A stretch of 64,000 nucleotides of DNA from Myrmaecium sp. VS I D KN 1 (taxonomy: Eukaryota > Ascomycota > Dothideomycetes > Valsariales > Valsariaceae), in NCBI GenBank assembly GCA_019775845.1, contig JADQAV010000022.1:448830-512829 (forward strand). Reading direction: 5' to 3'. The position numbers were made by a program, and so were the translations under genes. The notes beneath the pieces are model-generated. The model had not been told where the DNA came from. It saw only the letters and a program-made list of their open reading frames with translations, and made no database searches. The first letter of the stretch is position 1; each line of letters begins with the position of its first letter. This document shows positions 3,828 to 60,879 of the stretch, piece after piece.

Positions 3828-6800
3828 ATGGCATCGTCCTATAAATCTCACTTCAGCCCACCGACGAGGGCGGACCGTCCGTCTCCGCCGGTCTCTCAAT
3901 CTCAGCGCGCCTCATCGACTCGTTTCCCGACAAGGTCGGTAACGCCTGCGTTGCCGGCACAATCTCAACTCCCTGTTTTTGCTGCATCTACAGTGTCATC
4001 GTCCAAAAAGCTGCAAAAGAAATATAGCAAGGACAATGCGCAGGAAAGTAGTGCATCTGGAATCACCGTTCAGCAAAGCAGGAGCACAGGCCTGGATCCG
4101 CTAAGAAAGCCCGCGTTCAGATCGATGTCATCAGGTCTACACCCGCCGCATGTGTCCTCGGGTCCTTCGATAGCATCTCGTTCCTCGTCCCGGCTACCCA
4201 AATTCGATGCTACCAGAGGGGCTTCCACTCCTTCGCTTGTCTCTGGGTCTTCAATATCTACGGTTGACAGCCCGCGGTCTAATAAACTGAGGAGGAAGCC
4301 TTCATCGATTGGCAGGCAGGTTCAAAGGGTCCGAGCGACGTCTGTTTCCTCTGATGAGGAGGATATGGGCTGTGAGGCTACTATTCCGATAAGCTACAAG
4401 GATGCATTCTCGGGCACCGCATTAGGGATCAGCATGCCAGCCATTGGAGACACCGAAAAGAACAATGCGGCCGTGGACAGCTCTATAGGGTCGTTGTATC
4501 CCCTGACGACCGAAAATCTCCCTCCTCCAACGCCACTGTACGCACTTTCAGGCACACCGTCAACCCGCTATTCCGAGTCTCCCGGTCCTTTCAGCCTTAG
4601 CTCGACACCAACCTCCATGTCCTCTTCCTCTCCCGGTGTCATGCTGGCATCGGCAAGACCGACGGCCCGAACTCGACAAATAAACCCCATGCAGTCCAGG
4701 CCCCCCGTAACGAGACGAAGAACTGAGGAACCAAGTACACCGATTGTTGAGCCCCGTGGCCTTTCTTCCGTGCGAGAATCCTCTGCGTCATCTTCTTCAG
4801 CATCCACAGTGCGACACGGCGATACTCAAAAGCATAAGCAAATGGAGGTCCAGAGCAGGCTACCGGCCCCACCACTTAGTCCGCCAATGCAGCGGCAGTG
4901 GTCGAATACTACCGAGTATGTCCAAAAGGACCCCAGTTCCAGGGGCGACGTGCAGAACACCAAATCACCCCATTTTCGGGCCCAAGCCCCTCCCGAACTG
5001 GCCCATCTGGCCCACGCGATTCCGCCTCAGATCGGCCATCCAACAGTTCGGAGACCATCTCGGCCCAGTAGGGATGGTGCGCCAGATATCAGCGGGATGC
5101 GGGAGCCTTCTCCTATCATACAAAGCAACCTGATCAGTCTTCCCGCTCATCATAGACGCACAAGTTCGATCGAGTCTAGATCTGACATTGCTGGGACCTT
5201 CAATGGAAGTAAAACACGTTTAGCGATTCCTTCTCCTGTTATTGGTTCTTCTAGGAACGCATCACCCAGTCGGAGCAACCCTACCTCCGGAATCCACCCG
5301 ACCACGAGCCGTGCGCCTATCGGAGGACCTTCTTCTGAGAACCAGCCCGACCGACGTGCAAAGACGCTGCCAATGACAGGCTCGAGCCCAAGCAAGACCT
5401 CCTCGAAGTTTGGCTTCTTGACCCGGCGTACGAGGACCGAACCGAGTCCGACTACATCTACAAAACCAGAGAAGAAGGCCCGCAAGGGTCCCGCAGCTGG
5501 CACTGGACATGAAGGATACGGCAGGTATGCCAACCGTGGCCGCAGTGGCAGCACTACATCTGCTACAGGGAGCTGTGGACGCTCGGCTAGTGTCGACAGT
5601 ACATATGGAAGTACCAACCGAAACTCCACCCGGAAGAGTAGCTTCAGCAGTACCAAAGGTCAAGAGATGGATGAATTCCTTGCGGAACGCTTGGCGCCGG
5701 TGGTCATACGCGGTTCTGGCAGTACTGATCTTTTGAAAAGCCCGGACTCGATGCGGAGCGATACTAGCTTGGACTCAACGATCAGCCGAACTGCATCGCG
5801 GTTCGCTCGGGACGCTTTTGCATCTCAGGCTGGAGTCAGTTCTTTCTCCGTGAACTCGGCGGGTTTAAGAGAACCCAGTGCACCTCCTCCGACGATTCCT
5901 AATATTATTAATACGGCCGAGAAGATAGGAACGCGAGCCACGACTGTCAAAAGCTCCGAAAGTGATGGGAGGGTCAACAATGCATCGTCTTCGATCAGCG
6001 GTCCTCGAAAACATTCAAGGTGGTCGAGTCTTGTGTCTGACAAGTACCCGATAAAGCTTCCGACGCTAAATAGTTCGAGAGTAGACCTGGCAGCACCACC
6101 CGCTGAAGATGGCGACGGTGTCAAAGAGAAAAACGTGTCGAAGACGAAGAAGCCAGCGAAACCCCAAAAGAAGTGGAATTTCTTCCAGCGGTCCTACGAT
6201 ACGAAGAAGGAGGAATCCGTTGACTATCTGTCAACAACCCCCCGGATCGGAGGGTTGCGGTCTGTTCCTCATTACGCGATGGTGGATCCGGCTGATCACA
6301 TGGACATGGAAGACATTGAGAAGATCTTACGGGAGGCAGATGATATCCCAGATCCTGACACATCACCATCGGACATCCATGCGAATCTGCAAAATCGACC
6401 AGCTCCAGAACATGTGCACTCAATCTTATTGCCGGATCCGCCATCCTATCCAACCGAATACGCACATCCTATGAGGCCAGCGTCGCCGAAAGTATCATTA
6501 AGGAGAGGGCCCGTGTCGGACCTACGATCAAATGAAGAAGCCAGACCAAACGCGTCAGTCGCCTCTTTAGATGCTGCCGCCATATACCCGCCCCCGCAGG
6601 CTCAGCCTTCGTCGCCTCAAAAGCCGCAAAGTACGCAGCCGTTGCCCTCACGTCCTAGTCGTCTGCCTCAGGTGGGAAGAATTCCAAAAGTCGTCCCCAG
6701 GCGACCTCAGGGGATTGATGAAAAACAATGCAAGCCCTCAATGCAGTCTTTTTCTCGGCCTTTTACTCGAGACGAACCTCCTCCGTCGATGCCTGCAGCC

Positions 6801-14424: not shown

Positions 14425-16405
14425 ATGGCGACAGATCACCACTATCTGGGCTTCGACCTGTCGACCCAACAGCTGAAAGGTATGCGCCGCCGTCCGCCCC
14501 GTCTTTGCCCTCCTTCACATGTTTAGCTCACTCTCTCTAACACCCCCACCAGGCATCATCGTCCATTCAAACCTCAAGAAGCTGCATGAAGCCAAGGTCG
14601 ACTTCGACGCCGACCTCGGCCACTACGGCATCGAGAAGGGCGTGCTGACCAACCCGGCCGAAGGCGAGATCTTCGCGCCCGTCGCCATGTTCATCGAGGC
14701 CGTTGACCTCGTGCTCCGGCGATTGCGGGAGGACGGCGCGGATTTCGGCAAGATCAAGGGTGTCAGCGGCGCCGGCATGCAGCACGGCACCGTCTTCTGG
14801 AGCGCGCAGGCGGAGACGGTGCTGGGGAGCTTGGACGCGGCGAAGAGTCTGAAGGAGCAGCTGGTGGGCGAGGGCGAGGGTCTGCGAGAAGGCAGGGTTT
14901 TCAGCCACCCGTACAGTCCGAACTGGCAGGATGCTAGCACGCAGCGGCAGTGTGACGCCTTCGACGACTGCATGGGTGGCCCGGAGGAGCTGGCGCGATT
15001 AACGGGGAGCAAGGCGCATCATGTGAGTGGGTGGACCGAGGGGGCTTCATTCATCATCGTGCGGCGGCTTGCTGACTTGTGGAAATTGTAGCGCTTCAGC
15101 GGACCGCAGATTATGCGCTTCCGGGAGAAGTACCCAGACAGGTATAATGAGACGGCCCGGATCTCTCTCGTCTCCTCGTTCCTCGCCTCGGTCTTCCTGG
15201 GCAAGGTGGCCCCGATCGATATTAGCGATGTCACCGGCATGAACCTCTGGCACATTGAGAAGGGGCGGTGGCACGACGACCTCATCGCTCTCGCCGCGGG
15301 CGGCAAGGAACACGCCGCCGAGCTGAAGGCGAAGCTGGGGTCCGTCCCCGAAGACGGCGGCGCCAGCTTCGGTCCCATCTCTCCCTACTTCGTTTCCCGC
15401 TATGGCTTTCCCAAGGACTGCGCCATCATCCCCTTCACCGGCGACAACCCGGCCACCATCCTGGCTCTCCCGCTGCGCGCCTCCGATGCCATTGTCTCCC
15501 TCGGGACCAGCACCACCTTCCTCATGTCCACCCCGCGCTACCAGCCCGATCCGGCCTACCACTTCATGAACCACCCCACCACCGCCGGGCTGTACATGTT
15601 TATGCTCTGCTACAAGAACGGCGGCCTGGCGCGGGAGCACGTCCGGGACGCGATCAACCGGGCAACGGGCGCGACGGACCCGAAGGCCTGGGACGCCTTC
15701 AACGCGGCGACGACGAGCACGCCGGTGCTGGGCCAGGCTAAGCCGGACCAGGACCCCATGCGCCTGGGCTTGTTCTTCCCTCGGCCGGAGATCGTGCCAA
15801 ATGTCCGCGAGGGGGTGTGGCGGTTTCTGTACAACAGCCATACTGGCGGTTTAGAGCGGGTGGAGGCGTCAGAGGGCAAAGAACAGAAGGGTGAAGGCGC
15901 ATGGCCGCTGCCCACGGCGGACGCGCGGGCGATCGTCGAGAGCCAGTTCCTCAGCCTACGGCTGCGGAGCCGAGGGCTGGTAACGCCACAGGACGAACTT
16001 CCAGCCCAGCCGCGGCGGATCTACCTCGTCGGCGGCGGCAGCGCGAACCCGGCGATCGCGGAGCTGGCGGGCCAGGTCCTGGGCGGGGCCGAGGGCGTCT
16101 TCAAGCTGGACATCGGCGGCAACGCGTGCGCGCTCGGCGCGGCGTACAAGGCCGTCTGGGGCGTGGAGCGCGCGGCCGGCGAGCGCTTCGAGGAGCTCGT
16201 CGAGAGCCGCTGGGACGAGGAGGGCTTCGTGCGCAAGGTCGCGGACGGCTACCGTCCTGGCGTGTGGGAGCGCTACGGCGAGAGTCTGAAGGGCTTCGAG
16301 GCGGTTGAGCGGCGTGCGTTGGAGGAACGTGGTGAGCGCGTGCTGGAGGAGCGGGATAAGAAGCGGGAGGCGGGGGCGGCGCTGGGGGAGAAGAAGCAGG
16401 ATTGA
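14425..16405 (+). CDS. xkiA: D-xylulose kinase
   Basis: Exons 14425-14479, 14553-15022 and 15092-16405 give 612 residues. The enzyme phosphorylates D-xylulose to D-xylulose 5-phosphate, linking xylose and arabinose catabolism to the pentose phosphate pathway. FGGY-kinase signs: [11 protein letters not shown] at the N-terminus (ATP-phosphate loop), [26 protein letters not shown] and [11 protein letters not shown] in the middle, and [12 protein letters not shown] with [15 protein letters not shown] in the C-terminal ATP-binding half. The order and wording match Aspergillus XkiA closely. The protein is some 40 residues longer than the Aspergillus niger enzyme as I recall it, from a Gly/Glu-rich insert near residue 150 and a charged C-terminal tail. 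A 7-residue tag after LRG-type sequences is absent, and no targeting signal is seen, so it should be cytosolic. Confidence 0.95.
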
Positions 16406-17215
16406 GGGTAAGGTGGAGGGATGGGGCTGGGTGAGTTGACATCTGTGTGTATGTAGGTATGTACTGTAAGTATGTTTGGACGTTATCTAGGAGGGACTCT
16501 CTTTCTTTTCCTTTTCTTCTTCTTCCTCTTTTTCTTCCTCATTTTCCCTTCTTTTTTCCTTCCCTATAACATTCTCTCCGTTTCGTTTAGTCACGCTCTC
16601 TCCTCTACGGGCTCTCTCTACTTCGCAGGTTCCCACCTGATTAGCAGATCATGGTACGCAAGGCTATCCGGTTCTTCCTGTGGTTTTATTTTATTTTCTT
16701 CTCTCCTTCCTGTTTTTTGACCGTCAGCTCGTCGTTTGCCCGTACATATCTACGTACCCTTCTACTTCACTCTACACGATCCAACCCCGCAAACCACCTG
16801 CCTTCTCTTCGTCCGACCATCTCTATCTATTGATTGGCTTTGCGTTGGTTGTGTGTTGGTGGGCGTTGGTTCAAAGGTGGGCGTGAAGTATGTCCCTAGA
16901 AAGGGTGGAGGTGCTGATGGGTATGTGATCGCGGCTGGCCGTGATGACGACGCGAACAACTGAAGGCGTTGAATGTGCGTTGTATACTGTAGGTATGTCT
17001 GGCTTCCGTAGATGCGTGGCAAGGCACTACAGCCAGCCGCCAGCAAGACAGCATTGACTTCCGCTTCCGCTGTCCTGGTGACCCGGCTGTAACGGGAATA
17101 CATATTAACGGCTTACCTAGGTACGTATTGAAGAGCTGGCAGGCACGGTAAACGGAGCATCTCTGCTCCCGCTTGGTCTTTCGTTTGCATCTGACGGGAA
17201 TCTCGCTTACTGGAG

Positions 17216-17223
17216 TATATAAA
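17216..17223 (+). promoter_or_regulatory. TATA box of a possible non-coding or small-peptide transcript
   Basis: TATATAAA is followed by a pyrimidine-rich stretch (17230-17310) typical of fungal transcription start regions. No large gene follows, so it may drive the unassigned repeat-bearing transcript downstream. Confidence 0.45.
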
Positions 17224-17312
17224 CACACACATTGAACTTCACTCATTCCCCCACAACCTTCACTTCACTTCCTTCTTCCCATCCTCTTTACTCCTCCACC
17301 TCCACCACCACG

Positions 17313-17384
17313 ATGCAACATCTGCCGCCGCCCAACCGCCAGCCTCACTTGAAAAACAACAACATCGCTGTTCGTCCAACATGA
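17313..17384 (+). CDS. possible 23-residue small ORF behind the TATA box
   Basis: The first ATG after the TATA box, in the good context CACGATGC, opens a 23-residue frame rich in Pro, Asn and Gln. A CTAAC at about 17400 and an AG near 17423 hint at an intron end just after it, so it could be a first exon, a leader ORF, or chance. I recognise no family. Confidence 0.2.
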   Translation: MQHLPPPNRQPHLKNNNIAVRPT

Positions 17385-17717
17385 TGTTGAATATGGATCT
17401 GCTAACTCGGTGTGCCTAATTAGGTTTGACTTCGTTCCCACACATACGCGCTTCGTCGCCAATTTCCCACTTCTTCTTCTTGTTCGACGGTCTTGATTTT
17501 CGAATCTTGACTTGCGCGCGCTTCATTCGCCGCTCGTTTTCCAGGCACTTTCCTACCTGCTTGCGGACTCTGTCTGCACACATCACTTCCTTTCCTTTTC
17601 TTCAGTTCCTTCGTTTGTTGGTGACGGAGAGGGATGCACCGCCCGCTTGCTTGCTTCCTTGCGCGAACTTGGTTTGCATCCTACACTATCCTTCTCATTC
17701 AACCTTCCCTATTTTCC

Positions 17718-18467
17718 CTCCGGAACGTCACCGTTTCCGTCGAGCCTTCTTTTTTCTTCGTTCGTTACCTTATTCTTCTTCTCCGGAATTTTGACCACGT
17801 CCTGTCGAGCATGCGGCACTTCTACAACCACAGCCAACTCTTTCTCCTTTTGGTTTGTCTCTGGGGCTTCATGTCTTTTGTGAAGGACCCGTTGAGCTTT
17901 CCCGCACAACCCAGCGTAGCCGCATCTTTTTTTTCTCCGGAACGACTTGGTGTCTTCCGTCGAGCTTCTGCAGGACGACAATCTCCAGGGTTTTGACTTC
18001 TTCGGCTCCGGAACATTTCGGTGTTCTGTCGAGCGTCGTTGAACAAACCAGCTTGTTTCTTCTCCAGGATCCTCTTTCCGTTCTGTCGACTCCCCGTGCG
18101 AGCGCCAATGCCGCCCACATCATGGACATCATCTGTTGGCTTCCGCCTACGGGCAGAATCCAACACATTTTTCCTCCGGGCTTCGGCCCGTCGAGCCTTG
18201 CGCCACATCTTCCGCGCATCCCAGTCCATCCGACCCAGCCGTCCCCGGTGTAACGTCATTTTCCCTCCAGGTGTCGGTCTGTCCAATCAACGACGTCAGC
18301 GGCATTCGTGCTTCTTTTCCGTCCCCAGACCCGGCACCTGTCGAGCTTTCATAATCGCGCCTGAGCTCGCTGGAGGCTTCTTGCCAGGCGCCGTTTTTTT
18401 TCTTTCCTCCGGTCTCTTCCCCAATGCGTGATTCCTTGAAACTGCATCAAGGCGGAGATCCGTCGAG
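17718..18467 (+). repeat. cluster of about nine degenerate direct repeats (CTCCGGAAC ... CCGTCGAGC)
   Basis: Units of mostly 23-38 bp begin with CTCCGG or CTCCAG after a T-rich run and end with GTCGAG. Copies: 17718-17745, 17781-17810, 17935-17965, 18006-18034, 18062-18090, 18174-18196, 18265-18284 (partial), 18319-18346, 18407-18467 (expanded). The gap between starts varies (about 53 to 155 bp) and is usually not a multiple of three, so this is not a repeated protein segment. Two later copies are followed directly by TCATAATC, which recurs at 18350, 18469 and 18572. Confidence 0.6.
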
Positions 18468-18600
18468 TCATAATCCCCATTCCTGTTCGCAGGATGGGCG
18501 GTAATCATACAGGCAGCGCCGAACCAGCGTGCTCACCGCGTTGATAATCCCGCACCACACGGTTTGAATGTGGTTCATAATCCCCCCAGCTCGCTGGGTC
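18346..18600 (+). repeat. secondary repeat TTCATAATC..CAGCTCGCTGG
   Basis: Near-identical 22-25 bp copies at about 18348-18374 and 18571-18597 share TTCATAATC and CTCGCTGG; shortened forms sit at about 18468 and 18542. They overlap and follow the main repeat cluster and may be part of the same unit. Confidence 0.5.
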
Positions 18601-19053
18601 GTAATGCCGGGACTTTCAAGTCTCGGACCTGGATACTGGAGAGATCAGAAAAGAAGGGTATGTTAGTTCTAATCCCTCATGTTTTCATTTTATTCCTCTT
18701 CCCTTCCCTCCCGCCCTTCATCCCCGTTCCCCTACGAGGCTGTTTGCTCGGTGGTGGCGGATAATACAGATGGATTGGGTTTCTTACTGGGTTTTCTAGC
18801 TTGGTAAGTCTGATTCCCCCCTTTACTGCTATTCTACTGCTCTAGTCACATCTGCTCGACTTCACTCGACGACCAGATTAACTCCGTATATTTCACGCGG
18901 GCGAACCCGAACTTATGAGCTTGCTTGCTTCATCTGCCGTTAGGAAGACCGGAACAGATGTGCGACGAGAGTGTATGGGAGAGCGGTATCAAGCCGACAG
19001 CGGCGGTGGATCATGGTCATTGCAAACAAAATACTCAGTTCTTAGGTTTGGCT

Positions 19054-19110
19054 GGGGGGGGGGGGGGGGGGGGGGGGGGGNNCCCCCCCCCCCCCCCCCC
19101 CCCCCCCCCC
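19054..19110. other. assembly gap: poly-G, NN, poly-C
   Basis: Twenty-seven G, two N and twenty-eight C in a row. A true G/C tract this long is unlikely; it most likely marks a poorly resolved join, so the distance between flanks is unknown. Confidence 0.9.
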
Positions 19111-19356
19111 GCGCACTCTGTCCGCGAAGCATCGGCGTTGGAACAAGCCTTGAAAGACGAATAGTCATAATGATTTGACACATAAAGAATGCACGTCAAG
19201 GCTGAAACTCGGTGGTGGAATATAACAGCTAAATAGTTAGACAGCAAGAAACATCTGAATGATGGCATAAAAAAGAAAGCATGCTGCAACAGTCTTTCAC
19301 ATAGGTCCTTGAGATATAAGACCCACATACACCACCCTCCCTTGCCGCCTTCCCTC

Positions 19357-21222
19357 TCAGTATATATACCGAAAATTCACATTCTCCCGATCCGTCAGGT
19401 CCTCAAACGCATGAACAAACTTGGTATCGACAATCACGGGCGCGTTGCCAGCCGCCGCTGCTGCCGCAGCCGCCGCCTCCCGCTCGGCGCCGAGACGGGC
19501 GGCGGCCTCGCGATCCTTCTTCCGGTTCTGGGAACGCAGCCAGCAGCGCAGGAAGACCAGGATGGCGACGAGGAGGACGTAGCAGCCCATGTGAACGGCG
19601 AAGGCGATGAAGTAGCGGGGCGCGTTCCAGGAGAGGAAGACTTGGGGTCCTGTGGATTGGATTCGATTAGTTAGTCTGCGGATGGAAAGGAGAGGAGAGG
19701 AGGGGAGAGGAGGAGGAAAGGAAAGAAGGGAGAGGGGCCGTTTACCGATGGCGTTCCCGACGCTCCAGGCGATGAAGTTGGCGGCGACGACGACGGACTT
19801 CTTGGTCTGGCCGGCCACGTTGCGAGACAGCAGGGACATGGAGAGGGTCTGGGCGGCCCAGAAGGAGAGAACGATGTAGTAGGAGATGAGCAAGCCGGCC
19901 TGGGTGGCCCGGTCCGTGTTCTCGACGGACATGAGGACGATGGTCCCCACGAAGGAGGGGATAACGTACAGGCCCATGACGAGCACGTTCTGGCCCGTCC
20001 GGCGGACGAGCCAGGTGCTCGAGAGCAGGATGAGGATGATGTAGGCGCCCAGGACCATGGCGAGTAGCTGGGTCTGCAGGACGGTGAAGTGGAAGCCGGC
20101 GATGATGATGTTGGCGAAGGCGCCCAGGCCGGACGTGGGCAGGGTCGTGCAGATGGCGATGCCGCAGTAGCACCACATCTGCGGGTCGAGCAGGGCCTCG
20201 CGGACCTGGTAGGCCCGGAAGGTTCGGTTCTGTAGCCCCGTCTGGTTCGTCCGCACTCGCTCGACCATGAGCCGTTTGTCGGATTCGGAGAAGCACTTGG
20301 CGCGCATGGGCGAGTCGGGCAGCCACCAGAGGACGAAGAGGCCCCAGAGGACGGAGAAGGCGCCGTAGGTGACAAAGATGGCCTGCCAGGACGTGAGCGG
20401 GCCGGAGTGGATGAGGGAGAAGCAGAAGGCGAGGAGGCCGCCGACGATCTGCTGGCCGCCGTTCATCATGTACCAGTACGTGACCGTCTGGGCCTGCTCC
20501 TCGCGCCGGTACCACATCCCGCTCATGATGAGAAAGGAGGGCTGACAGGCTGCTTCGAAGATCCCCAGGAGCGTCCGCACCGTCACCAGGCTGGCGAAGT
20601 TCCGGCACGCCGCGTGCAGGGCCAGCACCGCGCCCCAGAGGACGATGTTGGCGCCGAGGTACTTCCCGATCGGCACTCGCTGGATTACCCAGTTTGTCGG
20701 GTACTCGACAATGAGGACGGCAATGTAGATGCAGGTGGTGAGCCAGGAGAACTGGAGTTGGTGTCAGTCTCCAGATGGTGGTCGAAGGTGTGTCTCATGG
20801 GGTGGTCGTGGAAAAGGAAGATAACGGCAGAGACGGTTGGAAGAGGAGGGAGAGGACGGAGAACTGACCTGCTGGCCATGAAGATGGGTATCTTGCGGCA
20901 GATTCATAATACTCGTAAAGCTCATTGTGCCCTTGTCGAGGGCCTGGAGGAAGTAGGTGAAGACCATAACGGTCAGGACACGCTTGTCGATCATGCGGCG
21001 CAACCGCTTGTTCTCCTCCTCGGAAACCTCGACGGCGACGGCGTTGGCGTACTTGGCCACCTCGGCGTCCATCCGCTCGTAGTTCGCGTGGTCCTTTTCC
21101 AAGGCGTCGCCGGAGAGAACCCGCTCGATCTGCGAGACGTCCCCAGCGTCCTTCTTCTCCATGCTCAGCCGGTCCGCGTCCATCGGGACGGGACCGGTGA
21201 TGTCGTGCTTGTCGCCGGACAT
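19357..21222 (-). CDS. MFS transporter, allantoate permease (Dal5) type
   Basis: Exons (minus) 21222-20869, 20751-19746 and 19649-19357 give 550 residues. It belongs to the anion:cation symporter branch of the major facilitator superfamily, which imports small organic anions. Signs: a cytosolic N-terminus of about 80 residues, LQALDKGTMSFTSIM in helix 1, PTNWVIQRVPIGKYLG in the helix 2-3 loop, LGIFEAACQPSFLIMSGMWYRREEQ in helices 4-5, LPDSPMRAKCFSESDKRLMVERVR in the central loop, and the late motif NAIGPQVFLSWNAPRY restored exactly by removing the second intron. Twelve helices are expected. The cytosolic tail holds a run of nine to ten Ala. An in-frame ATG at 21327 would add 35 Ser-rich residues; I cannot exclude it. 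It is divergent from the GH105 gene, which suggests the substrate is a pectin-derived acid sugar (inference). Confidence 0.92.
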
Positions 21223-41852: not shown

Positions 41853-43574
41853 TCAAGTTTCGTCCGCATAAAGATAGTTCAGCACAGCGTCCTTCATCGT
41901 CAACTCGAGCTCATTCGAACCTGCGTCATGCTCCATGGATTGTTCGTAGTCAGCAAACATGTTCCCCTCCCTGATATCAAGGCCACCCAGACCAGGCTCA
42001 ATGCCCATTTGCATATCCAACTCATAGTTGGCTCTGGGATCATCCAACTCCCCCCACTCCAGGCCTTCCACGCCACCGACCCAGAAAGCACCACCTTCGC
42101 GGGCATTGCGCTCCTTGATCCGTTCGGTGATTTCATACAACGCCAACCCATGAGCACGCTGACAATGGGCTTCGAGCTCGACATCATGTGTGAAGGTCTG
42201 TTCACATGAGTCAAGCAAACATCTGACGCCCCTGCCGGTCTCGTCATCATGCTCCACGCCAGTAAGCTTCCTCAGAGCTGAAGCTTCAGCCTTCTTCTTC
42301 CGGCGCCTCGTCATACGGTTGCCGTTCACATCGAGCTGCGGGCCGTGGTTTTTAGGACCTGGGATGCCTAGGTGTTGAGTCTTGATGTGGTCTTCCAGCC
42401 CTTGCTTAGTCGCCAGTCCTCGGCCACATGCCCCAGTGCCGTCCCACTGAGCGATCGCTGGATCCTTGAAGGAGCTCAAATCAGCCTCGCCACAGATAAA
42501 CCCCCTAACCTTATTATGCACCGTTTGTATGTGAACCTTTAGGTTTCCGTTCCGTGTGAACGAACGACCACACCCTGGGTATGTGCAGGGGAACGTACGT
42601 CGTTCATCCAACGTTGCTTTAGAATGTGTGATGTCGATGTGAGCCCGAAGCTGCTTTTGAGACTGGCATTTGGTACTGCAGTGCGGGCATGTGGGCGGAT
42701 GGACCTCATGAATATGAGCCTGAAGAGCCGCATATGTCGGAAAACCAACCACCCCCGACTGTTCTGATACTGCATCGCTCGAGCAGTCTGGCATGACTTC
42801 TGGATCCGACCCGCAGAGATTGCAAACGTAGCGATTGCCGCCATGAATCCGAGCAATATGTGCGTCGAGCTTGGCTTGTGTTTCGAAGCCACGGGCGCAA
42901 GGTTCGCCTGTCGTCTGGTCTATCTCCGTGCAAGGGAAAGGCTTTTGACCAAGGTGAACCAGCATGATATGTTTTTGAAGAGTTGCGTGCTTCCGGAAGC
43001 TTTCATTACAAGGTGGGTATTCCTTGCACCGGAACTGTTCCTTCTGATCGTGAGACTCCTTGTGCCGCCGTAGACGAGTGCCGTTGGCAAACTTCTTGTC
43101 ACATCCTGGCCAATCACAGACAAACTTCCGAACATCACTATGTGCGGAGACCAGATGGCGGGTGAGGTGAACCTTACGGATGAAGGTCTTGTTACAACCG
43201 TGTTCTTCGCAAGCAAATGGGCGCTCATTTGTGTGTGATCGCAAATGCTCCTCCAGCCGACACGGGCGATTGAAAGATTTGCCGCAGCTGTCGTATGAGC
43301 AGAAATAGAGGTTCTGCCGCCGGTCTTTGTCTGGAAGAGATGGAGAAGCGGATGTCGGAGGCGTATCGACGGAACTCAGTTGTCTAGGGCCAGGCTCTTC
43401 TTCATCGTCAGACCGTACATCAATATCGTCGGGCGAGTAATTTGAACCGCTATCGTCTGATGCACTTCCGTTCTTGTCGTCCTGTTCATAACGAGTGCGT
43501 TTAACATCAGGCAACTCAGCTGCTTGGGAAGCTTTACGCTTCCTGAGAGGCCACGGGGCCATCAGGCTGGCCAT
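41853..43574 (-). CDS. transcription factor IIIA (ten C2H2 zinc fingers)
   Basis: One frame of 573 residues on minus. TFIIIA binds the internal control region of 5S rRNA genes and recruits TFIIIC/Pol III; it also binds 5S RNA. Ten C2H2 fingers can be counted between about residues 88 and 480: YFCSYDSCGKSF, FACEEHGCNKTF, FVCDWPGCDKKF, FRCKEYPPCNESF, then longer fingers with wide Cys spacing (FPCTEIDQTTGEPC), YVCNLCG, PTCPHCSTKC, FPCTYPGCGRSF, a ninth with an insertion, and VRCLLDSCEQTF. TFIIIA usually has nine fingers in animals and nine to ten in fungi. The N-terminus is basic (LRKRKAS, VKRTRY) and acidic in turn; the C-terminus is acidic. The start context is normal. It diverges from rpb6 with 289 bp between starts. 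Confidence 0.92.
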   Translation of the reverse strand: MASLMAPWPLRKRKASQAAELPDVKRTRYEQDDKNGSASDDSGSNYSPDDIDVRSDDEEEPGPRQLSSVDTPPTSASPSLPDKDRRQNLYFCSYDSCGKSFNRPCRLEEHLRSHTNERPFACEEHGCNKTFIRKVHLTRHLVSAHSDVRKFVCDWPGCDKKFANGTRLRRHKESHDQKEQFRCKEYPPCNESFRKHATLQKHIMLVHLGQKPFPCTEIDQTTGEPCARGFETQAKLDAHIARIHGGNRYVCNLCGSDPEVMPDCSSDAVSEQSGVVGFPTYAALQAHIHEVHPPTCPHCSTKCQSQKQLRAHIDITHSKATLDERRTFPCTYPGCGRSFTRNGNLKVHIQTVHNKVRGFICGEADLSSFKDPAIAQWDGTGACGRGLATKQGLEDHIKTQHLGIPGPKNHGPQLDVNGNRMTRRRKKKAEASALRKLTGVEHDDETGRGVRCLLDSCEQTFTHDVELEAHCQRAHGLALYEITERIKERNAREGGAFWVGGVEGLEWGELDDPRANYELDMQMGIEPGLGGLDIREGNMFADYEQSMEHDAGSNELELTMKDAVLNYLYADET

Positions 43575-43863
43575 GTCAACGGGCTGGAAACCGTTTATTT
43601 GATGTTTTCGACGGTTCGGCGATAAGCTGGCAGAGCCGAAATAAAATTTACCCCGGACTCAATGATTTGTTACATAAGCGGGCGTCTGCGGCCGAGGCCT
43701 TGGCAAGGCGGTCGCGGAGAACTCCGTGTCCAGCTGGAATTTTTGGACATGAGCTTCTTTGACCTCTTGCCTTGCGTCGGAACCACCCAGACGGACGTCG
43801 CCGACACCATTCGCTGCAGCGCTGTACCACTACCGACATATAGCTTAGCTTCTACCCGCGAAG
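43575..43863. promoter_or_regulatory. shared promoter of TFIIIA and rpb6
   Basis: 289 bp separate two start codons that diverge. Contains TTTACCCC at about 43648, CGTCGG words and a CCATTCG near 43806. I cannot name a factor site with confidence. No gene fits. Confidence 0.55.
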
Positions 43864-49471: not shown

Positions 49472-51643
49472 GCGAAGCGGTCAAGCTCAGAGGAGCTCAG
49501 ATGTATGAAGGGTTCAGGATTGGGGAATGCCTTATCAGGATCTAACAAACTGTCACCTTCGTCGTCGACTAGGTTGACGCTGTGAAGAAAGGACTCTGGG
49601 GCTGGTTCTTGGTGTTTCTCTCTGGATATACAACAACCTACGCTCTTCTCCCGGCGTGCTTGCATGCCGGACGAGCAGCGACGGCGCTCAATCAAAAACA
49701 GGCAATCCCACGATCCTCTCTGTTCGCCCCGGTGTATGTGTATTTGGTGCCGCAGGTCAGCGGAATTGTAGACAGGCTTGCTGCAATGGTCTAGCTGCGG
49801 GTCACTTGCGAGCATTCAGCAGCAAAACCTCTTTATTCACTTCTTCGTTATATTCATTGAACCTTCCATTTTTGGCCCTGGCATGGACCGTCAGCCATTT
49901 CACACCGCACTTTTGTACCTTCGGCGAGGTGAGAGAAGGAATATCTACTTCTTCATTGTCGCGGTTGTCGGACACCTCCGCGTCCACTTATGGGTTACGA
50001 ATATCCACATTGTCCCTCCGGACTGTCGTCACTTCTTTTCCTTTGTTTGTCCTTTCCTTGTATATATATCGCTTCATCAAACCTGTCTCGTCTCAGTCTT
50101 AGTTCTTCTGTCATGTTCAATGTGGGCTCAATGAGCTTCCGCGTGTGGGTATGCACTAAAAACATTTGCGCTGCTGTCACATGTGCTGTTATTATTGTCT
50201 CTACGTCATTGCGTTTCTGTTCCATTTGCGCGTCTTAGACTTTGGGTCACCACGTGCACGGTCACGTACGCAGGGCGTGTGACACTCGTAGGAGAAGCAC
50301 CTTCCGCCTAGGTGGTTATATACCCCGAAAACATGTCTATTTTCCATCAGCCAGTCCTGCTAAGATCCCAGTTGCGACCCCCAGCCCCCATGGCGGAGTT
50401 GCCTGTACGCAGGGTAAGAAGTGTCTTCCAAGAGCCGCTGGCTAAAAACCGATAATTGGGGATCCCGGTTTTCTCCCGACCCGACGCGGGTTAGGTTTTT
50501 GTCCCCTCGAAGGACTCGGGTTCGAGTTTGGGCTTGGAGGGGTGATTATGTTCTTTCTTTTTAGCCCTTGCTTTCCTTGTTTTGCGTGAGCGACGGCATT
50601 GCTCGTGTGCCTGTGTCATCTACATGAGGCTTCCCTCTCTTACCTATGAAGCAGTATATGACAAAGTACATCAGGTGCTCACGCATCGATGGGGCGCAGG
50701 TCGTCCTCTTCTTTTAAAGACATATGATTCTCTTGATGAAGCAGTAGCGCTTGCCATACATCTGTTCCTCTTAACCACTCTCTACTTAACAAGATAACAC
50801 TACGTCTCACAACAGGACTTCTGAACGTCTCTAGAAATCAGGAGGAAGTGAACGAGCTTCACGGCACCGACCTCACGCTGCACCTCTGCTTATTATAACG
50901 AAACCTCTCAGACCTTGTAAGGTTCTTGACAGTAAGCTCTTGGCGATATATATGCCTACTAGATCATAAGCGCAAGCGCGCAGACTATCAGCAAACCCAT
51001 CCCTCTCTATTTCTTGATCTGGCATGAACAGGACTGACTCCTTTGACTGAATGACCGCAGTACCGGTAACAGGTATCGCCCGACCCAGCCCTCATCATGC
51101 ATGGCTTTACTCCTTCGACCTCCTCCCGCCGCGACGATATTCTAACCGCCGTCCACAGGTTCGAGGTACGCAACTGCGACCACCGTCGCTTATGTCCGCC
51201 GTATCTGCAATATCATAACTCAAGGCGCCAAGATGCTTGTCTAACCAAACGTCCTATACCTCGGATACGCCAGAGCGCTTCCAAAACACGAGCGCACGCC
51301 GCGGCCTTATGCATACCAATAATTGGTGGCTCGCGCCCGGTGTCCTTCACGCAAACCCGTAGAGCGCCGTTATATAGTGTCTACGGCTTAGGAGGTCCGT
51401 CCAGCATGACGTTAGAGGGCGTCATGGGTTAGCAGAGTTAAAAGAGGCGATGCGCATGTGTCTTTTTCATCACTTAGCTGGTTCTGTATAGAAGGAGGAT
51501 CGGGGAGCTTCGGGAATATCAGGGTGCACTAGGTCTTTAGGTTATCAGGGGCTTAGTAGGAACTGGGTGAGAAGGAGCGAGGAAAGAATACGCTTAGTAA
51601 GATTAGGTATTCAGAATCTGAGGCTTTCGTCATAAGGGGTGCC
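49472..51643. other. intergenic transition to the AT-rich block
   Basis: No gene seen. GC content falls off towards the end. Up to 51643 this is ordinary host sequence; the next base starts the first fossil repeat. Confidence 0.5.
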
Positions 51644-52400
51644 TGTTATGGGCCGTGGGCCAGGGAGGCTGAAGACTTGCCTGGCCAGAGGTAAGGCTTC
51701 GTAAACTCGTATATAACCATTTTATATCTATATATATAACCTATAAGGGATATTATATAAACTAGTAAGCTCCCTTATCTTCCTATCTTACGCTCTTTGA
51801 ATAATCTTTTCTATCTTATAGTTAATCTATTAGGCTATTTTAAGCTATAGTTTAGACTATAATATAAGAACTATCTCTTATTTTCTTTTATTTAAGATAC
51901 TAGGTTTCCTAATATTATAAAGCTAATAGAAAGATACTAGATATTAATTTTAATATCTTTACTAAGATATTTATATAATAAAATAAGCTTTTACTTTAAT
52001 AAAAATAAACCTATATAATTAGGAAGCTTTATATAGAAAATAAGATTATCTAGAAGTTAGATAATAATTATAATAATACCTTCTATCTCCTGTATTATTA
52101 AGACTCTAATTATAGCGACTAAAGCCTTATTCAGACTAATATTTTAGACCTAATAAAATATATTTATAATAATCCTAAAGAATACCTCATAACTAGAATA
52201 AACCTATATATAAATCTAGTAATAGATATTCGCTAATTTAATATGAAAGAGTAAAAGGCTTAGTATATTTTCAGCTAGAAAGGTAATTTAGAGTATCTCT
52301 CCTTAAATTTATATAAAGGAAGAGAAATAAATAAATATTATAAGTAGCTAAGTTATAGAATATTATAAATATTATTTCTAGAGATACTAATAGCTATTAA
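51644..52400 (+). mobile_element. fossil Ty3/gypsy fragment: 5' LTR and start of internal region
   Basis: A 221 bp LTR (51644-51864, starting TGTTAT) is followed by internal sequence that matches the start of the plus-strand element at 57129. It is truncated at about 52400, where another repeat (in reverse orientation) begins. Heavily decayed, with many breaks; age cannot be read because of RIP. Confidence 0.7.
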
Positions 52401-52734
52401 AGAGGATAGAGCTAACTAAGTATATAAGGAGTTATGAAAGGTTTAGAAGAGTATTTTATTAGTAATAGATTAGCCCCAGTTTATTTTATTATCCTAGTAG
52501 TTATCTAGATTACTTAGATAGTCTATCTAGATATAGATAGGTAGGCCTTATTTATAAACTTTATTATAGTAATACCGAGCTTCTAGTATAGGGGCTAGGC
52601 TTCTATATTTTTTTTTTAGAGTTTTCTATTAATTTAATATTAACTAGGTAGAGCTAGTTAGCTAGTTCTAAGCCTAAGTCTAGGCCTTAGTTAATTCTAA
52701 ATTATCTATATCTAGACCTTAGCTAATCCTAAGT
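52401..52734 (-). repeat. unclassified repeat D, reverse copy
   Basis: About 330 bp that reappears in opposite orientation at 60880-61400. It carries short tandem units around ACTAAGGCCTAGAC. Its class is unknown; it may be a piece of an older element. Confidence 0.6.
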
Positions 52735-55700
52735 TATTATAGTCTGAACTGCTAGAAATAGCCTAATAGATTAACTATAAGATAAAAAGGATTATTTAAG
52801 TAGGGAAGGTTAGGAGGATAAAGGGGCTCGCTTATTTATATAATTACCCCTAATAGATTATATATATAAGTATGTAATAGTTATATACTAACTTATAAAG
52901 CCTTACCTCTATTAAGGTAAGTCTTTAGTATCCCTAGCCTTAGGCCTATAACATTACCCCCCTCCTCCACCCTTTTAAGCTATAGGTATACCTTTATAGA
53001 ATAATATTTAACTATCTTTTAATATAGTAGTTAACTATAGTTAACTATCCTCTTTTAAAATATAGTATTAGTTTCTATATTAGCCTAGTTCTTTCCCTTC
53101 CTACTATAAAGAGTTAACTATTTTTTCTTATATTTACCACTCTTCTCTAGTTCTCGGGCGCTTTATATAAGGTAGTAGTATATTATATAATTACTACTTC
53201 TCCTGTCTTTAATATTATTATCTAACTACTTCTCTCTATATCCTTGTTTATAAAAGAGGGCTCTCCTTATTTTATTTCTACTTCTTCTCCTCTTTATTAT
53301 CTTTAATTACTAGCTTTATCTCTCTCTCTCTTTTTTTTCTCTTTTTTTTACTGTATCCTACTACCGCCTTTATATAATATCCTTTTCTTATCCTTAAGTT
53401 TTAACTTAATTACTAATATTAGGTAGAATCTTCGTTCGTTCCGGCTATATAAGAAAGATTTTAATCCTACTTAAGTTCTAATAGCCTTACCTGCTCCCGC
53501 CGCACCCGCTATTATCTCTATAACCCGCTTATTTCTTACTTATCTATAAGGACCTCCTATTAGAGAAGAAGATAAATACTATTATATATAGTTTAAATAA
53601 ATAGCTATTATAAGTTTATATCTTTTCGAAGTCTCTAGGTAAGTAGCCTTCTTTACTTCTTATATAATTATATTAATATTTAGTAAGTAATATAAGATCT
53701 AATAAATACCGGCTTATTTATTCCTTCTTTAAGTTAATAGTTAGGACTATCCTCTTATTATTATTTACTAGATAAGTACTAGGATCTAGTCTTAAATAAA
53801 CTGTTATATTAATCTTATTTTCTTAGCTTACTATAGCTTACTAATCCTATATTAATATTATATTAATTATCTTTTATAACGCCCTATTCCTGGTCTATTA
53901 TACCTATAGTTTATATAGAAACTTTAGGAATGTTATAAGACTTACTAGGTTTAATAAGGGTACTTATAAATTCTATAAACAGAAGTCTTATTAATAGCGT
54001 TATTCTTATTAGAATAGTTAAGAGGCTTTTATACTTCTAGTAACTCTAGCCGTCCTTTCCCTCGCTATTTATAATATAGAGGATTTGTTATTTATATAAT
54101 AGTCTATCATTATCTAGTATAATCCGGTGCCTTTACTCCTCTTTATTCTAGGAATTTAAATAGTAGTCTATAGAATAAATAAAAGTCCTTATTTTTTTAT
54201 TATTATATATATTTTCTACTAATATCTTTTATTATAAAGCTTCTTTTTTTTATATAAGTTAGTCCTCTAAGGCCGCTATACCTTCTAGTATTACTTTAGA
54301 TTCTTAAATAGATTTAGTATAGTTTACTTATTCTATTAAGTATTATGCCTACTAGCCTCTCCCTCTCCTTATACAGCGCTTATTAATAATCTTCTTAATT
54401 ATATAATCATCCTTATAGTCCTATTATATTAGTAGTAGTTAAGAGTCGTCTACTTATTAGGATAATAGTAGGTTATTCACTATTAAGTAGACCTAATCTA
54501 TATAAAATATATTATAGATTTTAGGAGAAGTATTTAGTTAAATAGTATATAAGCCTATAGTCTTTAAGATAGTATATTCAGCGTTCTTCTAGTTTAGTTT
54601 CTTATAAGGCTATATTATATAAATATTCTTTAAGGATAGCTAGACCTTATCTCGTATATAAAATTTTAGAGTTAAGCCTCTTTTCTTATTTATCTAGTAT
54701 TCTGCTTCTTACTAGGCGTAAACTATATATAATCTACTCTTCTTTTTATAAAGAAGTTTTAATCCTAATTAGGGTTTCTTCTAGTAGTTCTTTCGGCTTA
54801 AAGGGAGATAGATTAAACTTATAAAATAGGAAGAAGGGACTAGCCCTAGTAATAATATTTATAAAGGCGTTAAGAGCTAACTTAATTAAGGGAAGTAGCT
54901 TTATTTAATCGCTCTAATTAAAGTATATATAAGCCCTAAGATAAGCCTCTATAGTACTATTAATCCTTTTAGTAGCGCCGTCTATCTACAGGTAGAAAGC
55001 CGTACTTAGACGTCTTTTAATCCCTATTAGTCTATATATATAACTAGAGTTTTCTTATAAATTAAGTACTTCTATTAGAAGTAATTACCTAAAGAAAACT
55101 ATAGAATTATATAAAGCTTTAGATTATAACTCTAGCTAAGTATTCTATAATTATTTTTTTTACTCTCTTAAGGATTACGCCTCTTATTAGCTAGTTTATT
55201 ATAATAAGGATATTTATATAACTACTACTCTCTAGGAGATTAGTTATAAAGTCTATTAATATCTTTTACTATAGCCTATTAGGAATAGGTAGAGATTTAA
55301 GAGTCCTTATTTCTACTATTAGAAGGCTTTAGTTCTTTTATATATAGTATAATTTTATATAAATTACTTAATATTTTTACTTATATTTAGCTATAAGTAG
55401 GCTTAGGTAATAGAAATATGTATTTATTTACGTCCTAGATATTTAATTTATATTAAATTATAAGCCTCCTATATAATCTTTATATATAGTAATTTATACT
55501 ACGGTATTTATCGTCTCTTTTTATAGAGGATAAAGCCTTTCTTATCTAGTTTATATTCTTCTATAAAGACCTTAAGCTATAGCCTTTAAAAAAATTATTA
55601 GGCTCTATTTTATATAGTCTAGATAGCTTATAGTTCTTAGCTACTTCTTATTCTGAAGGAATCCCTTCTATTAAGATAGAAGCTTATAGTAAAACAGTAA

Positions 55701-57110
55701 AACTATTATATACTTTTTTAAAATTAGTTAATAAAGGAGCTAAATTATATAGCTAGTTACTCGCTTATTTATATTATTTAGTATATCCTATATCCTCCTT
55801 AATATGGCGTCTACTATATTATTCTTAGTACCCTTCTAGTATTAAAAGTAGAAGTTAAACTAGTTAAAGAATAGCTACTATTATATATACCTCTCTATTA
55901 GCTTCCTAGGGCTAAAGAGGTACTCTAGATTCTATAATTCATAATAACTTAAACTCTCTAAGTAATCTAAGTTCTAAGTTCTATTCTTTATAATAGCTAG
56001 TAGTTCTTTATTATAGATTTTATAATTATACTTAGCTAGTAAGTTATACTTTAAAAAAAAGATATAGGGCCTAAGTAAACTATCCTCGCTATATTAAGAG
56101 AGGACTCCTCTAATATTATACCCTAAAGAATTACTCTTAATAATAAGTATATAAAGGAGGTTAAATACTATAAATACTAGCCCTTCTAAGAATATCTTTT
56201 CTAGTTTTTAAAAAGTATTTTAATATTCCTCTATTTATCTAAGGACCTTATCTTTATAGGTTAGCTCTACTAAAGGTTGTATAATCTTTAAAAAGTTTCT
56301 ATAGAATATTAATAAAAATTAGTAAAGCCTAAGAATCCTCTAACTTTTTTAATTAAGGATAGAGCTTCCTATTCCTATATATAATTTTAATCTTTATAAG
56401 ATCTAATTAGACTTTCCTACCTACTTATATAATAAATCTAAGGTACTTTATCTCCTTTACTTTAAATTTATATTTATTAATATCTAGATAAAGTCTAGTA
56501 TTCTTTAACTTTTTTAGTACTTTTTTTATTTTTATATAGTAGTCTTCTAGGCTTTTATTTAAGTAGATTAATACGTCGTCTATATAGGCTAAATAGAATT
56601 TATTTAAGTATTCTCTTAAGGTCTAATTAATATACTTTTAGAAGGTACTTAGTATATTTATAAGGCTAAAAGGGGTAATAAGCTATTTATATAAGCTATA
56701 TTTTATACGAAAGGCTATTATCTACTCCTTTTTTAAGTAATTTAGATCTTATAAAAGATAATTCATTATACTAATATTTAGTTTAATAAATTACTTAGCT
56801 TAGCTAAAGTCTTATAGATTAACGGTAAAGAGTATCTATCCTTTTTAGTAGTTATTTTAAAAGTTTAATAATTTATATAGAAGTATAAGCCTTTTCCTAG
56901 TTTTTATATGAAAAGGACTAAGGCTACTACTATAGAGGAGTAACTAACTTAGATAAAGTTTTTATCTAAAAGACTAGTAAGTATTTCCTTAATATTATTA
57001 ATTTATCTTACGTTATATTATATAAAGGACCTTAATCTTATAGTATATCTAGCTTCTTTCTATCCTTTTATATAAGCTTAATATTATAGTTAATTCCGGA
57101 GCCCTAATAA
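52735..57110 (-). mobile_element. fossil Ty3/gypsy retrotransposon on minus, 5'-truncated
   Basis: Reads on the minus strand. The 3' LTR is 52735-52953 (starting TGTTATAGGCC, 219 bp), preceded by a polypurine tract at 52954-52976. The internal region continues to about 57110 and shows pieces of reverse transcriptase (near 56.5 kb), RNase H and integrase-type sequence in the gypsy order. The start of the element is missing: the gag region and 5' LTR are not seen. Strong TA enrichment means RIP; many breaks. Same family as the plus-strand element at 57129. Confidence 0.75.
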
Positions 57111-57128
57111 AGTAAGAATAAGAAGGCG

Positions 57129-60100
57129 TTTTATTAGGGGCCTAAGGCTAGGGAGGCTGAAGACTCGCCTTACTAGAGGTAAGGCTTCATAAGCTAGTAT
57201 ATAACTATTATGTACTTATATATATAACCTCTTAGGGGTACCGTATAAACTAGCGAGCCCCCTTATACTCTTAACTTTCCTTCCTTAGATAATCCTTCTT
57301 ATCTTATAGTTAATTTATTAGGCTATTTCTAGCCGCAGTTTAGACTATAATATTAAGATTATTTTTTATCTAGTATACTAGGTTCCTCTAGTACTATATA
57401 GCTAATATAGAGATATTAGATATTAACCTAGATACTCTTACTAAGGAGGTTATATAACTATATAATAAGCTTATAACCACCTAGTAGTAAAACCGCGTAA
57501 TTAAAATACTTTATATAGAAATTAAATAACTCCGGAATTAGAGAATGGCTATAGTAATACCTTCTACTACCTTTATTACTAAAATCCTAATTATAATAGT
57601 TAAGGCCCTACTAAAACTATACTTCTCTAACCCGACCTGATATACTTATAACGACCTAAAAAGTACCTTATATTTAGGATAAACCTCTATATAAAACTAA
57701 TAATAGATACCTAATACTTTAATATAGAGGAGGAGAAGGCTTAGTATATCTTTAGCCGCCTAGGCGGAAAGGCCGCTTAGCGAATCTTATCTTAAATTAT
57801 AAATATATATAAAAGAAGGGAATAATAAGGTCCTATAAGTAGATAAGCTATACTAAGTTATAAATACTACCTTCGGGGATATTAATAGCTAGTAGAAGGC
57901 CCTTATATATATTAATAATATAAAGTAGGGATCTCGGGATCTGAATAAGTTCCTAAGTAAGTTTAATAAGGTTATAATTAAAGTCGGAGGTTTATCCTAG
58001 GCAGACGACTAGAAGAAGACCCTCTTCTAGACGGGTATTAATATAAAGCTCCTATAAGGGATAATCGGGGCTAAGAGAGATAAGTTATATAAATACTATT
58101 ATAACTAGCTTAGATAGGTAAATAAGGATTAGAAAGTAATAGCTTAAATCTAGAATTAAACTAATTATTATATAATACTAATATTCTAGTTATAGGCTCC
58201 TATTTAACTACCTTATAACTAGGATTAGATAAATTAGAAACCAACTAAGGTAAATACTATCGAGACTTACGGATAATAGCCTTATACGCGCATTAGATAA
58301 GTAACTTAGGACGAGTTATAAAAGAGACGGATAGAAAGGATATACTTTAGATATAATAAGAAGAACTACTTCGTAAGATAATACTAGCTACTTCTAGCCT
58401 GAAGGCCGAAATAAGTTATAGCTATATAAGATATAGAAAAGAAATTCTAATAATAAAGAGTACTAGTTAGCTAATAAAGAATAGGGAGATACGCTCGTAT
58501 AAAGTTACGAATAAGGGGATAATAGTATAAAATCTATAAAGTTTCTCTTTAATTAATAAGACTTTAAAAGATCGCGTATAAACTTATCTCCTTTTATCGT
58601 CTATACTATTATTAAAAAGGTATATATAGTATATACCCTAGTAGATAATAGGTATTTAAGTTACGGAATTATTAGTAAACGGTTTATATGAAAATATCGG
58701 CTTCTAACTTTTAAGATTAAACTTAGAAGAGTAATAGGGGTGGCTAATAGGAAAGGCTAGATTATATAGATTATATAAATAAGGCTAGATAATAAAATAT
58801 ATAATAAAAAAGGAACCTACTTCTATATCCTTTTAGACTATTTAGGATATAACTTAATCCTAGGAAAGATAAAGCTAGACTACTATAATACCTGGATAAA
58901 TTTAAAGCGAAGGAGAATCTTCCTTTATATAATAAGAGTTAAGCTTCGGGATAGAAGGAGAAAACCCCTATTAAAAATAGAAATTATTTAAGTATACGCC
59001 TCTATTTTAGGAGCCTTACTAGGAAAAGGAAAGAAAAAAAAGAAAAGTTTAAATATTTATAATAATCCTAGGGGATATCTAGAAGGTTTTTATATTTAAG
59101 AAGAAGCTTAACTCTTATATAAGCCTACCTAAGTAATACTAGGCTTATTTAGACTTATTTAAACTAGAAAACGCCTCCTTACTTCTATTATATTAGGGCC
59201 CCGGGGTTAACTACGATATTAAGCTTATATAAAAGGACGGAAAGGAGTTAAAGATATTATAAGGCCCTTTATATAATATAACCTAGGATAAATTAATAAT
59301 ATTAAGGAAAAAACTTATTAAGCTCTTAAATAAGAGCTTTATTAAGGTTAGCTATTCCTCTATAATAGCCCCGGTCTTTTTATATAAAAGCTAGAAGGAG
59401 GTATACGCTTCTATATAAATTATTAAGCCCTTAATATAATTACTAAAAAGAATAAATATCCTTTACTATTAATTTATAAAACCCTTAGATAGATCAGCTA
59501 AGGTAAATAGTTTATAAAACTAGATATTAGTATAGCCTTCTATAAGATCTAAATTACTAAAGAAAAAGAGTAGATAACGACTTTTTATATAAGATATAGC
59601 TTATATAAATAGCTAGTTACTCCCTTTAGCCTTATAAATATCCTAAATACTTTTTAAAAGTATATTAACTAGACTTTAAGGGAGTCTTTAGATAAGTTCT
59701 ACTTAGCCTATATAGATAATATATTAATATACTTAAATAGAAGCTTAGAAGGCTATTATATAAAGGTTAAAAAGATACTAGAGAAGCTAAAGGAAGCCGG
59801 GCTTTATTTAGATATTAATAAATATAAATTTAAATTAAAGGAGATTATTATCTCGGATTTATTATATAAATAGGAGGGGGAGTATAGATAGACCTTATAA
59901 AGATAAAAATAATATAAGAATAGAAAGCCCTATCTTCTATTAAAGAAGTAAGAGGATTCCTAGGCTTTAGAAACTTCTACTAATATTTTATAAAGGATTT
60001 TTTAAGGATTAAGAAGATATTCTTAGAAGGGCTAGTATTTACTATATTTAACCCCCTTTATACGATAGTTATTAAGAGTAATTCTTTAGATTATAATATT

Positions 60101-60870: not shown

Positions 60871-60879
60871 ACTAAGGCA

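Follow-up and report, generated by a model that had tools for sequence, protein, structure and literature searches.

Ten predicted bulged hairpins clustered between two convergent genes of a filamentous fungus: a candidate modular noncoding RNA

The interval between two convergent genes of Myrmaecium sp. was found to contain ten copies of a repeat unit that share a predicted bulged-hairpin fold, no coding signal was detected there, and pattern searches of the genome (25.66 Mb in 66 contigs) revealed no second array of this kind. The feature is real and non-random, and probably operates at the RNA level, with a likely role as a modular noncoding RNA. The best explanation, to which a probability of roughly 0.55 was assigned, is that an intergenic gene on the + strand gives rise to a noncoding RNA whose repeated bulged hairpins would bind several copies of one protein. 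All coordinates refer to the window, i.e. the whole stretch of 64,000 nt analysed (C13:448830-512829).

To the left of the array, the frame of an FGGY sugar kinase on the + strand ends at 16405, and to the right, an MFS frame on the − strand ends at 19357. The hairpins therefore lie downstream of both genes, as in the initial annotation, which had placed a group of repeats between two convergent genes. The TATA box and pyrimidine-rich leader that it described upstream were also recovered (Table 1), as TATATAA at 17216, a word found only twice on the + strand and twice on the − strand in the first 50 kb of the window, and as a segment with 78% pyrimidine at 17231-17312. A scan for bacterial-type promoters and terminators was uninformative (promoter-like 1 vs 0.6 in shuffles, terminator-like 1 vs 2.3).

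Other features of the window were noted. Short introns appear to interrupt its genes. A second possible 5' splice site, GTAAGT, was seen by eye downstream of the array (18804-18809, + strand). Between the array and the MFS gene, a G run followed by two N and a C run (19054-19110) is an assembly gap of unknown true size. An open frame on the − strand (41856-43658) matches C2H2 zinc-finger models and probably encodes several fingers, and at 51000-64000 the GC content drops from ~55% to 26-30%, forming an AT-rich block of the kind that RIP leaves in ascomycetes.

Table 1. Predicted features of the intergenic region (window coordinates)
Feature	Position	Strand	Remarks
Likely TATA box, TATATAA	17216-17222	+	Inferred; rarity in the window
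Pyrimidine-rich leader, 3' end at ATG of a very short ORF	17231-17312	+	By eye
Possible 54-nt intron, GTTCGT...CTAAC...TTAG	17370-17423	+	By eye
u1 (core 17718-17744)	17708-17746	+	Module 1; alignment, fold, held-out score
u2 (core 17781-17809)	17771-17811	+	Module 1; consensus fold not its own minimum
u3 (core 17859-17896), TT bulge	17849-17898	+	Module 1; 11 non-unit positions score higher in held-out test
u4 (core 17935-17964)	17925-17966	+	Module 1; alignment, fold, held-out score
u5 (core 18006-18033)	17996-18035	+	Module 1; alignment, fold, held-out score
u6 (core 18062-18090), A-U/G-U variant of the inner stem, outer GAG to GAC	18052-18092	+	Module 1
u7 (core 18174-18195), short, UUCG loop	18164-18197	+	Module 1
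u8 (core 18265-18286), outer GAG lost, inner stem retained	18255-18288	+	Module 1
u9 (core 18323-18345), CTC to CCC	18313-18347	+	Module 1; consensus fold not its own minimum
u10 (core 18407-18467), long loop	18397-18469	+	Module 1
CATAATC and hairpin 18357-18391	18350-18391	+	Module 2; z −0.79
CATAATC and hairpin 18476-18498	18469-18498	+	Module 2; z −3.57
GGTAATC and weak hairpin 18514-18543	18500-18543	+	Module 2; z −0.07; minimum-energy helix is another
GATAATC and hairpin 18554-18574	18543-18574	+	Module 2; z −0.74
CATAATC and hairpin 18585-18598	18576-18598	+	Module 2; z −2.47
CGTAATG and hairpin 18607-18626	18600-18626	+	Module 2; z −3.60
GTATGT, possible 5' splice site past the last hairpin	18658-18663	+	By eye

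The ten units make up module 1 (17708-18469), and all are on the + strand. Each consists of a U-rich run, CUC, mostly C-R-G, a variable arm and loop, an arm ending in C-Y-G, then UC, GAG and C. The pattern CTCCRG-N4-34-GTCGA has eight matches on both strands of the window, where 2.05 are expected, with six of the eight at 17718-18194 and all of these on the + strand; when the shuffle check proposed in the initial annotation was run, at least eight matches were obtained in 0 of 100 shuffles, though figures for the motif rules, and for the UAAU pattern considered below, are optimistic because both were chosen after the sequence had been seen. On the + strand, 9 of the 49 CTCC[AG]G words in the window fall inside 17690-18660 (0.9 expected), as do 7 of the 30 GTCGAG words (0.6 expected). 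The original claim of about nine clustered motif copies in the same orientation was thus borne out, with a count of ten units here. The nine-fold CTCC[AG]G includes a copy at 17983 that overlaps the u5 frame, and u3 (17859-17896, CTCTGGGG...CCCGTTGAG) and u9 (CCCCAG...) lie outside the original wording of the motif, yet align with the other units.

The start-to-start distances between units are 63, 78, 76, 71, 56, 112, 91, 58 and 84, and three of the nine are divisible by 3, consistent with the earlier statement that the spacings vary and mostly break the reading frame. A blind ungapped repeat finder recovered only small subsets of the units, such as u1, u4 and u5, because loop lengths differ. 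Column information is 0.5-1.5 bits in the U-run and mostly 1-2 bits in the constant ends, and is mostly <0.5 bits in the loops and in bases beyond the motif, with a few outer columns reaching 0.84; similarity between units fades beyond the motif edges. The 5' arm is nearly identical in u1, u2, u4 and u5.

A hairpin covariance model (R1) scored the ten units at 24.4-40.5 bits, and its next-best match in the window reached 13.3 bits, though these scores prove little as the model was trained on the same ten units. Each unit was therefore left out in turn and scored using a two-part weight matrix without a pairing term against ~128,000 non-unit positions. Seven of the ten units scored above every non-unit position, while u9 was beaten by 3 positions, u3 by 11 and u8, the weakest, by 22.

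The fold of module 1 was predicted using RNAalifold, unguided, on a plain MAFFT alignment of the ten units. The consensus has eight pairs, three in a CUC/GAG foot and five above a UC bulge of 2 nt on the 3' side, and coincides with the foot, bulge and 5-bp stem that had been proposed beforehand. Standard pairs are present in 70 of the 80 pair cells (87.5%), compared with 30-47% after shifting the partner by 1-3 columns. The three pairs directly above the bulge are formed in all 30 cells on the + strand, and the second of these, which is G-C in five units, A-U in three and G-U in two, is intact in 10/10. Double changes were also seen at two further pairs, each broken in 3 of 10 units.

The strength of covariation was assessed by permuting the 3' letters among units (500 shuffles). 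The percentage paired and the covariation score were each matched in 10 shuffles and the seven double-change cells in 19, whereas the number of double-change pairs and the number of pair types were no better than chance (as high in 129 and 229 shuffles, respectively). Compared with swapped arms, the units' own arms gave P values of 0.017 for pairs and 0.012 for contiguous pairs over all ten units, and of 0.027 and 0.006 over u3-u10; for energy the values were 0.09 (ten units) and 0.07 (u3-u10). The covariation check raised in the initial annotation was therefore positive for three of five shuffle measures and two of three arm-swap measures, but not for the other two shuffle measures or for arm-swap energy (P 0.09). 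The arms tend to change together, and the covariation is modest (P about 0.01-0.1).

A descriptor requiring CTC, at least four contiguous pairs and T[CT]GAG has six matches in the region, representing five distinct units and one overlapping alternative of u5, against a mean of 0.06 and a maximum of 2 in 1000 shuffles; elsewhere in the window it occurs five times on the + strand and three times on the − strand. The consensus fold is the minimum-energy fold of six of the ten units (u1, u3, u4, u5, u7 and u10). The minimum of u6 and u8 contains the inner stem only, and that of u2 and u9 is another helix. Folded singly, the units gave z values of −2.01 to +0.62, and none beat more than 190 of 200 shuffles. 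The 971-nt stretch as a whole was more stable than 20/20 shuffles on the + strand (z −2.65). In 120-nt windows over the array (+ strand), the mean z of −0.36 (22 windows) was no more stable than that of the upstream flank (−0.55, 31 windows) but more stable than that of the downstream flank (+0.23, 10 windows). Taken as predictions, these folds favour, but do not prove, a shared bulged hairpin. Two alternative folds may exist for u5, because its 3' arm can pair either with its own 5' arm or with the extra CTCCAG at 17983 (region 17983-18033).

Module 2 is made up of six [CG][AG]TAAT[CG] elements at 18350-18606, where 0.10 are expected, a number matched in 0 of 1000 shuffles. A predicted hairpin begins 0-7 bases 3' of each element, and the hairpin score 3' of the elements averages 16.6 (8.5 for all positions), a value reached in none of 2000 draws and none of 200 shuffled stretches. 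Taken singly, three of the six hairpins were equalled by very few of 200 shuffles (0, 0 and 6), whereas the other three did not stand out from them (40, 53 and 90). The hairpin sequences differ, the recurring part being the UAAU(C) that is predicted to be unpaired, and both u9 and u10 are followed by a module-2 element within 1-4 bases. The second repeat reported in the initial annotation is therefore present, but is better described as six [CG][AG]TAAT[CG] elements each with a hairpin; the GCTGG-ending part recurs in two. In the genome, spaced UAATC triplets have 36 matches, 2 of them in the array, against 61 in the control, and thus it is the pairing context that stands out and not the element. 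Pairs of CATAATC have six matches in the genome, none in the array (control 16).

Further copies of the array were sought in the same genome with a tool that scores the best candidates only and skips very common words. Among these, a DNA search with 17000-18700 returned the self-match only. The pattern TTCTCCGG-N6-30-GTCGAG was found 17 times, with 2 matches in the array and 13 in the control, so that there is no enrichment with that wording. A stricter pattern that includes the pyrimidine run has four matches, all in the array (control 1), and a looser pattern has 54 (control 34). Of these 54, 6 are in the array; among the 48 listed from other places, no pair of non-overlapping matches is <1 kb apart. 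The initial annotation had suggested that the same motif order might be found elsewhere; in this genome the pattern searches gave no second array, and by DNA and pattern search the array appears to be a single locus.

The hairpin model was also applied to five genomic stretches with pattern matches. With E <=10 it found three matches, which all lie in one stretch, L089, and are separated by more than 1.5 kb. The strongest is a lone match at 2348-2423 (18.1 bits, E 0.01, 45 kb searched). Another of the five stretches, L086, has repeated AATAATCC words at 5800-5980, which by eye resemble a coding repeat rich in Asn and Pro and are unrelated to module 2. In viral contigs, a pattern scan identified 74 loci with one match apiece, and the hairpin model found two matches there (E <=1), one of 19.4 bits and the other, in a different locus, of 18.1 bits; both results were taken as chance background.

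A functionless decayed minisatellite or tandem duplication, in which the hairpin is left over from the ancestral unit, would account for copies that all share one orientation, for the failure of pattern searches to find a second array, for the near identity of the 5' arm in u1, u2, u4 and u5, and for the covariation measures that do not exceed those of shuffles. However, a decayed duplication should leave some similarity in the spacers and loops, where there is little, and what is conserved is instead mainly the ends that pair, the bulge and the U-run. Arms that differ in sequence also still pair in u3, u6, u7, u8 and u10. The degenerated satellite put forward in the initial annotation is thus weakened because similarity fades at the motif edges, and is considered unlikely, though it retains some weight.

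The array might alternatively be double-stranded DNA bound by regulators that act on a neighbouring gene. Zinc-cluster proteins read CGG...CCG and homeodomain proteins read TAATCC, and by eye the former is present in several units and the latter in three module-2 elements. However, the distance between the two halves ranges from ~10 to ~50 bases, A-U and G-U variants break CGG...CCG while the stem is kept, and the position is downstream of both neighbouring genes. This option, also named in the initial annotation, is weakened because the half-to-half distance varies so widely, and it is improbable. Of the possibilities named there, a structured or protein-binding lncRNA fits best, because the predicted hairpins share a bulged foot, the units' own arms pair better by two of three measures, and there is no coding signal.

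The + strand is suggested to be the transcribed strand by the TATA box and leader, which face that way, and by the three pairs above the bulge, which are formed in 30/30 cells on the + strand vs 27/30 on the − strand. By hand count, however, 44/50 core cells pair as + RNA vs 42/50 as − RNA, and the − strand of the 971-nt stretch is also more stable than 20/20 shuffles (z −3.32). The last two observations would fit a functional RNA from the opposite strand, either an antisense RNA or the MFS transcript extended at its 3' end. A hairpin cluster processed to small RNAs would be a further possibility, but the hairpins are shorter than the milRNA precursors known to us. Given the direction of the upstream signals and the less complete pairing above the bulge, these readings are held to be quite improbable.

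Codon scores for 16450-19449 were negative in all six frames, the best frame of any 240-nt window reaching −0.29, whereas three stretches outside the training set, presumed to be further exons from three of the four genes used for training, scored +0.06, +0.32 and +0.23 bits per codon. Among eight ORFs none matched a Pfam model at its cut-off, and two had sub-threshold matches. Together with the spacings that fall out of frame, these results uphold the earlier rejection of a repeated protein or RiPP precursor, and by computed evidence the region has no coding function, as is the case for a lncRNA. Open frames of up to 136 aa (+) and 154 aa (−) and possible splice sites seen nearby by eye could indicate an exon of an unannotated, intron-split protein gene, but with negative scores in every frame, no Pfam match at cut-off and only 3/9 spacings that are multiples of 3, this is very improbable.

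Searching all 64000 bases on both strands against Rfam 15 gave no matches at the gathering score. At E up to 3, seven weak matches were obtained in 16400-19350, all at 19008-19154, and are due to the poly-G/poly-C run at the assembly gap. A tRNA or tmRNA was rejected, as ARAGORN called no gene anywhere in the window. The telomeres consist of TTAGGG repeats, with which many contigs begin and C66 ends. None of CCCTAA, TAACCC, TTAGGG or GGGTTA is present in 16001-19400, and telomerase RNA was rejected as a template complementary to this telomere is absent. Membership of a known RNA class (telomerase RNA or a tRNA-like element, for instance) is therefore the least probable of the readings considered, even though filamentous fungi have telomerase RNA genes of comparable length.

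The preferred reading, a + strand gene for a protein-binding noncoding RNA, predicts a transcript that would start near 17240 and end past 18626, yielding a lncRNA of ~1.4 kb with a modular 3' half. Module 1 would supply ten copies of a small RNA-protein site, in which a single-stranded U-rich run would precede a foot of three CUC/GAG base pairs, followed by two bulged nucleotides (UC) on the 3' side and, above these, a stem of ~3-8 bp; the foot and preceding U-run would be constant, while the upper stem sequence and loop would be free. Module 2 would contribute six single-stranded UAAU(C) elements in the linkers, each of which the adjoining hairpin would help to keep open. As a contact site of bulged foot and U-run repeated about ten times fits such a role, the RNA may be a multivalent scaffold or sponge to which one protein, reading both, would bind. 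A second protein, a single-strand binder, may read UAAU(C), since module 2 presents this in hairpin linkers.

The bacterial sponge RNAs CsrB and RsmZ are chains of hairpins that titrate one RNA-binding protein and carry GGA in the loops. The array is likewise a chain of predicted hairpins, but its loops vary freely and what stays constant is the foot of each stem.

The Drosophila lncRNAs roX1 and roX2 are described as carrying a short motif repeated in stem-loops, with rescue improving with motif number (PMC4719309). The array may resemble roX in design, since one consensus fold is predicted for its ten units, although this is the own minimum in only 6/10 and has modest covariation. It differs in organism and motif, and has no dosage-compensation context. 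In fungi, HAX1 of Trichoderma reesei is described as an intergenic lncRNA with a predicted structure that acts by binding Xyr1; it is 299 nt in QM9414, lies between genes for 2-isopropylmalate synthase and a hypothetical protein, and in these papers is reported only in T. reesei (PMC5865335, PMC6948969). The array is similarly an intergenic fungal lncRNA candidate with a predicted structure, but consists of predicted tandem hairpins, which those accounts of HAX1 do not describe. Identity with HAX1 was rejected, as the neighbours here are the FGGY kinase and the MFS transporter. The Schizosaccharomyces pombe lncRNAs meiRNA and mamRNA are presented as protein scaffolds, mamRNA for Mmi1 and Mei2 (PMC12566771), but a series of bulged hairpins like that found here is not part of that description.

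Structured RNAs predicted computationally in fungi are reported as intergenic, intronic or in UTRs, with functions that are partly unknown, and have one or two hairpins rather than a tandem array; one of them, an AU-rich hairpin, is found in eight copies in a single species (PMC8216456, PMC5640933). The words 'tandem' and 'repeat' are absent from the main text of PMC5640933, and 'stem-loop', 'hairpin' and 'repeats', so spelled, from that of a review of fungal lncRNAs (PMC12566771), which states that relatively few lncRNAs have been studied in detail in fungi beyond two model yeasts. In the open PMC literature, as far as its accessible text goes, no fungal lncRNA with such a motif was found.

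The locus may tentatively be regarded as encoding an RNP scaffold RNA with two modules, one of about ten bulged hairpins and one of about six UAAU-hairpin sites, which would be the single-locus counterpart in filamentous fungi of the roX/CsrB design. If this is true, the hairpin with its fixed bulged foot would be a ready probe, and one synthetic unit could be used to fish out the protein. The motif order would likewise provide a handle for finding the RNA in species with a diverged sequence, as it did for roX (PMC4719309).
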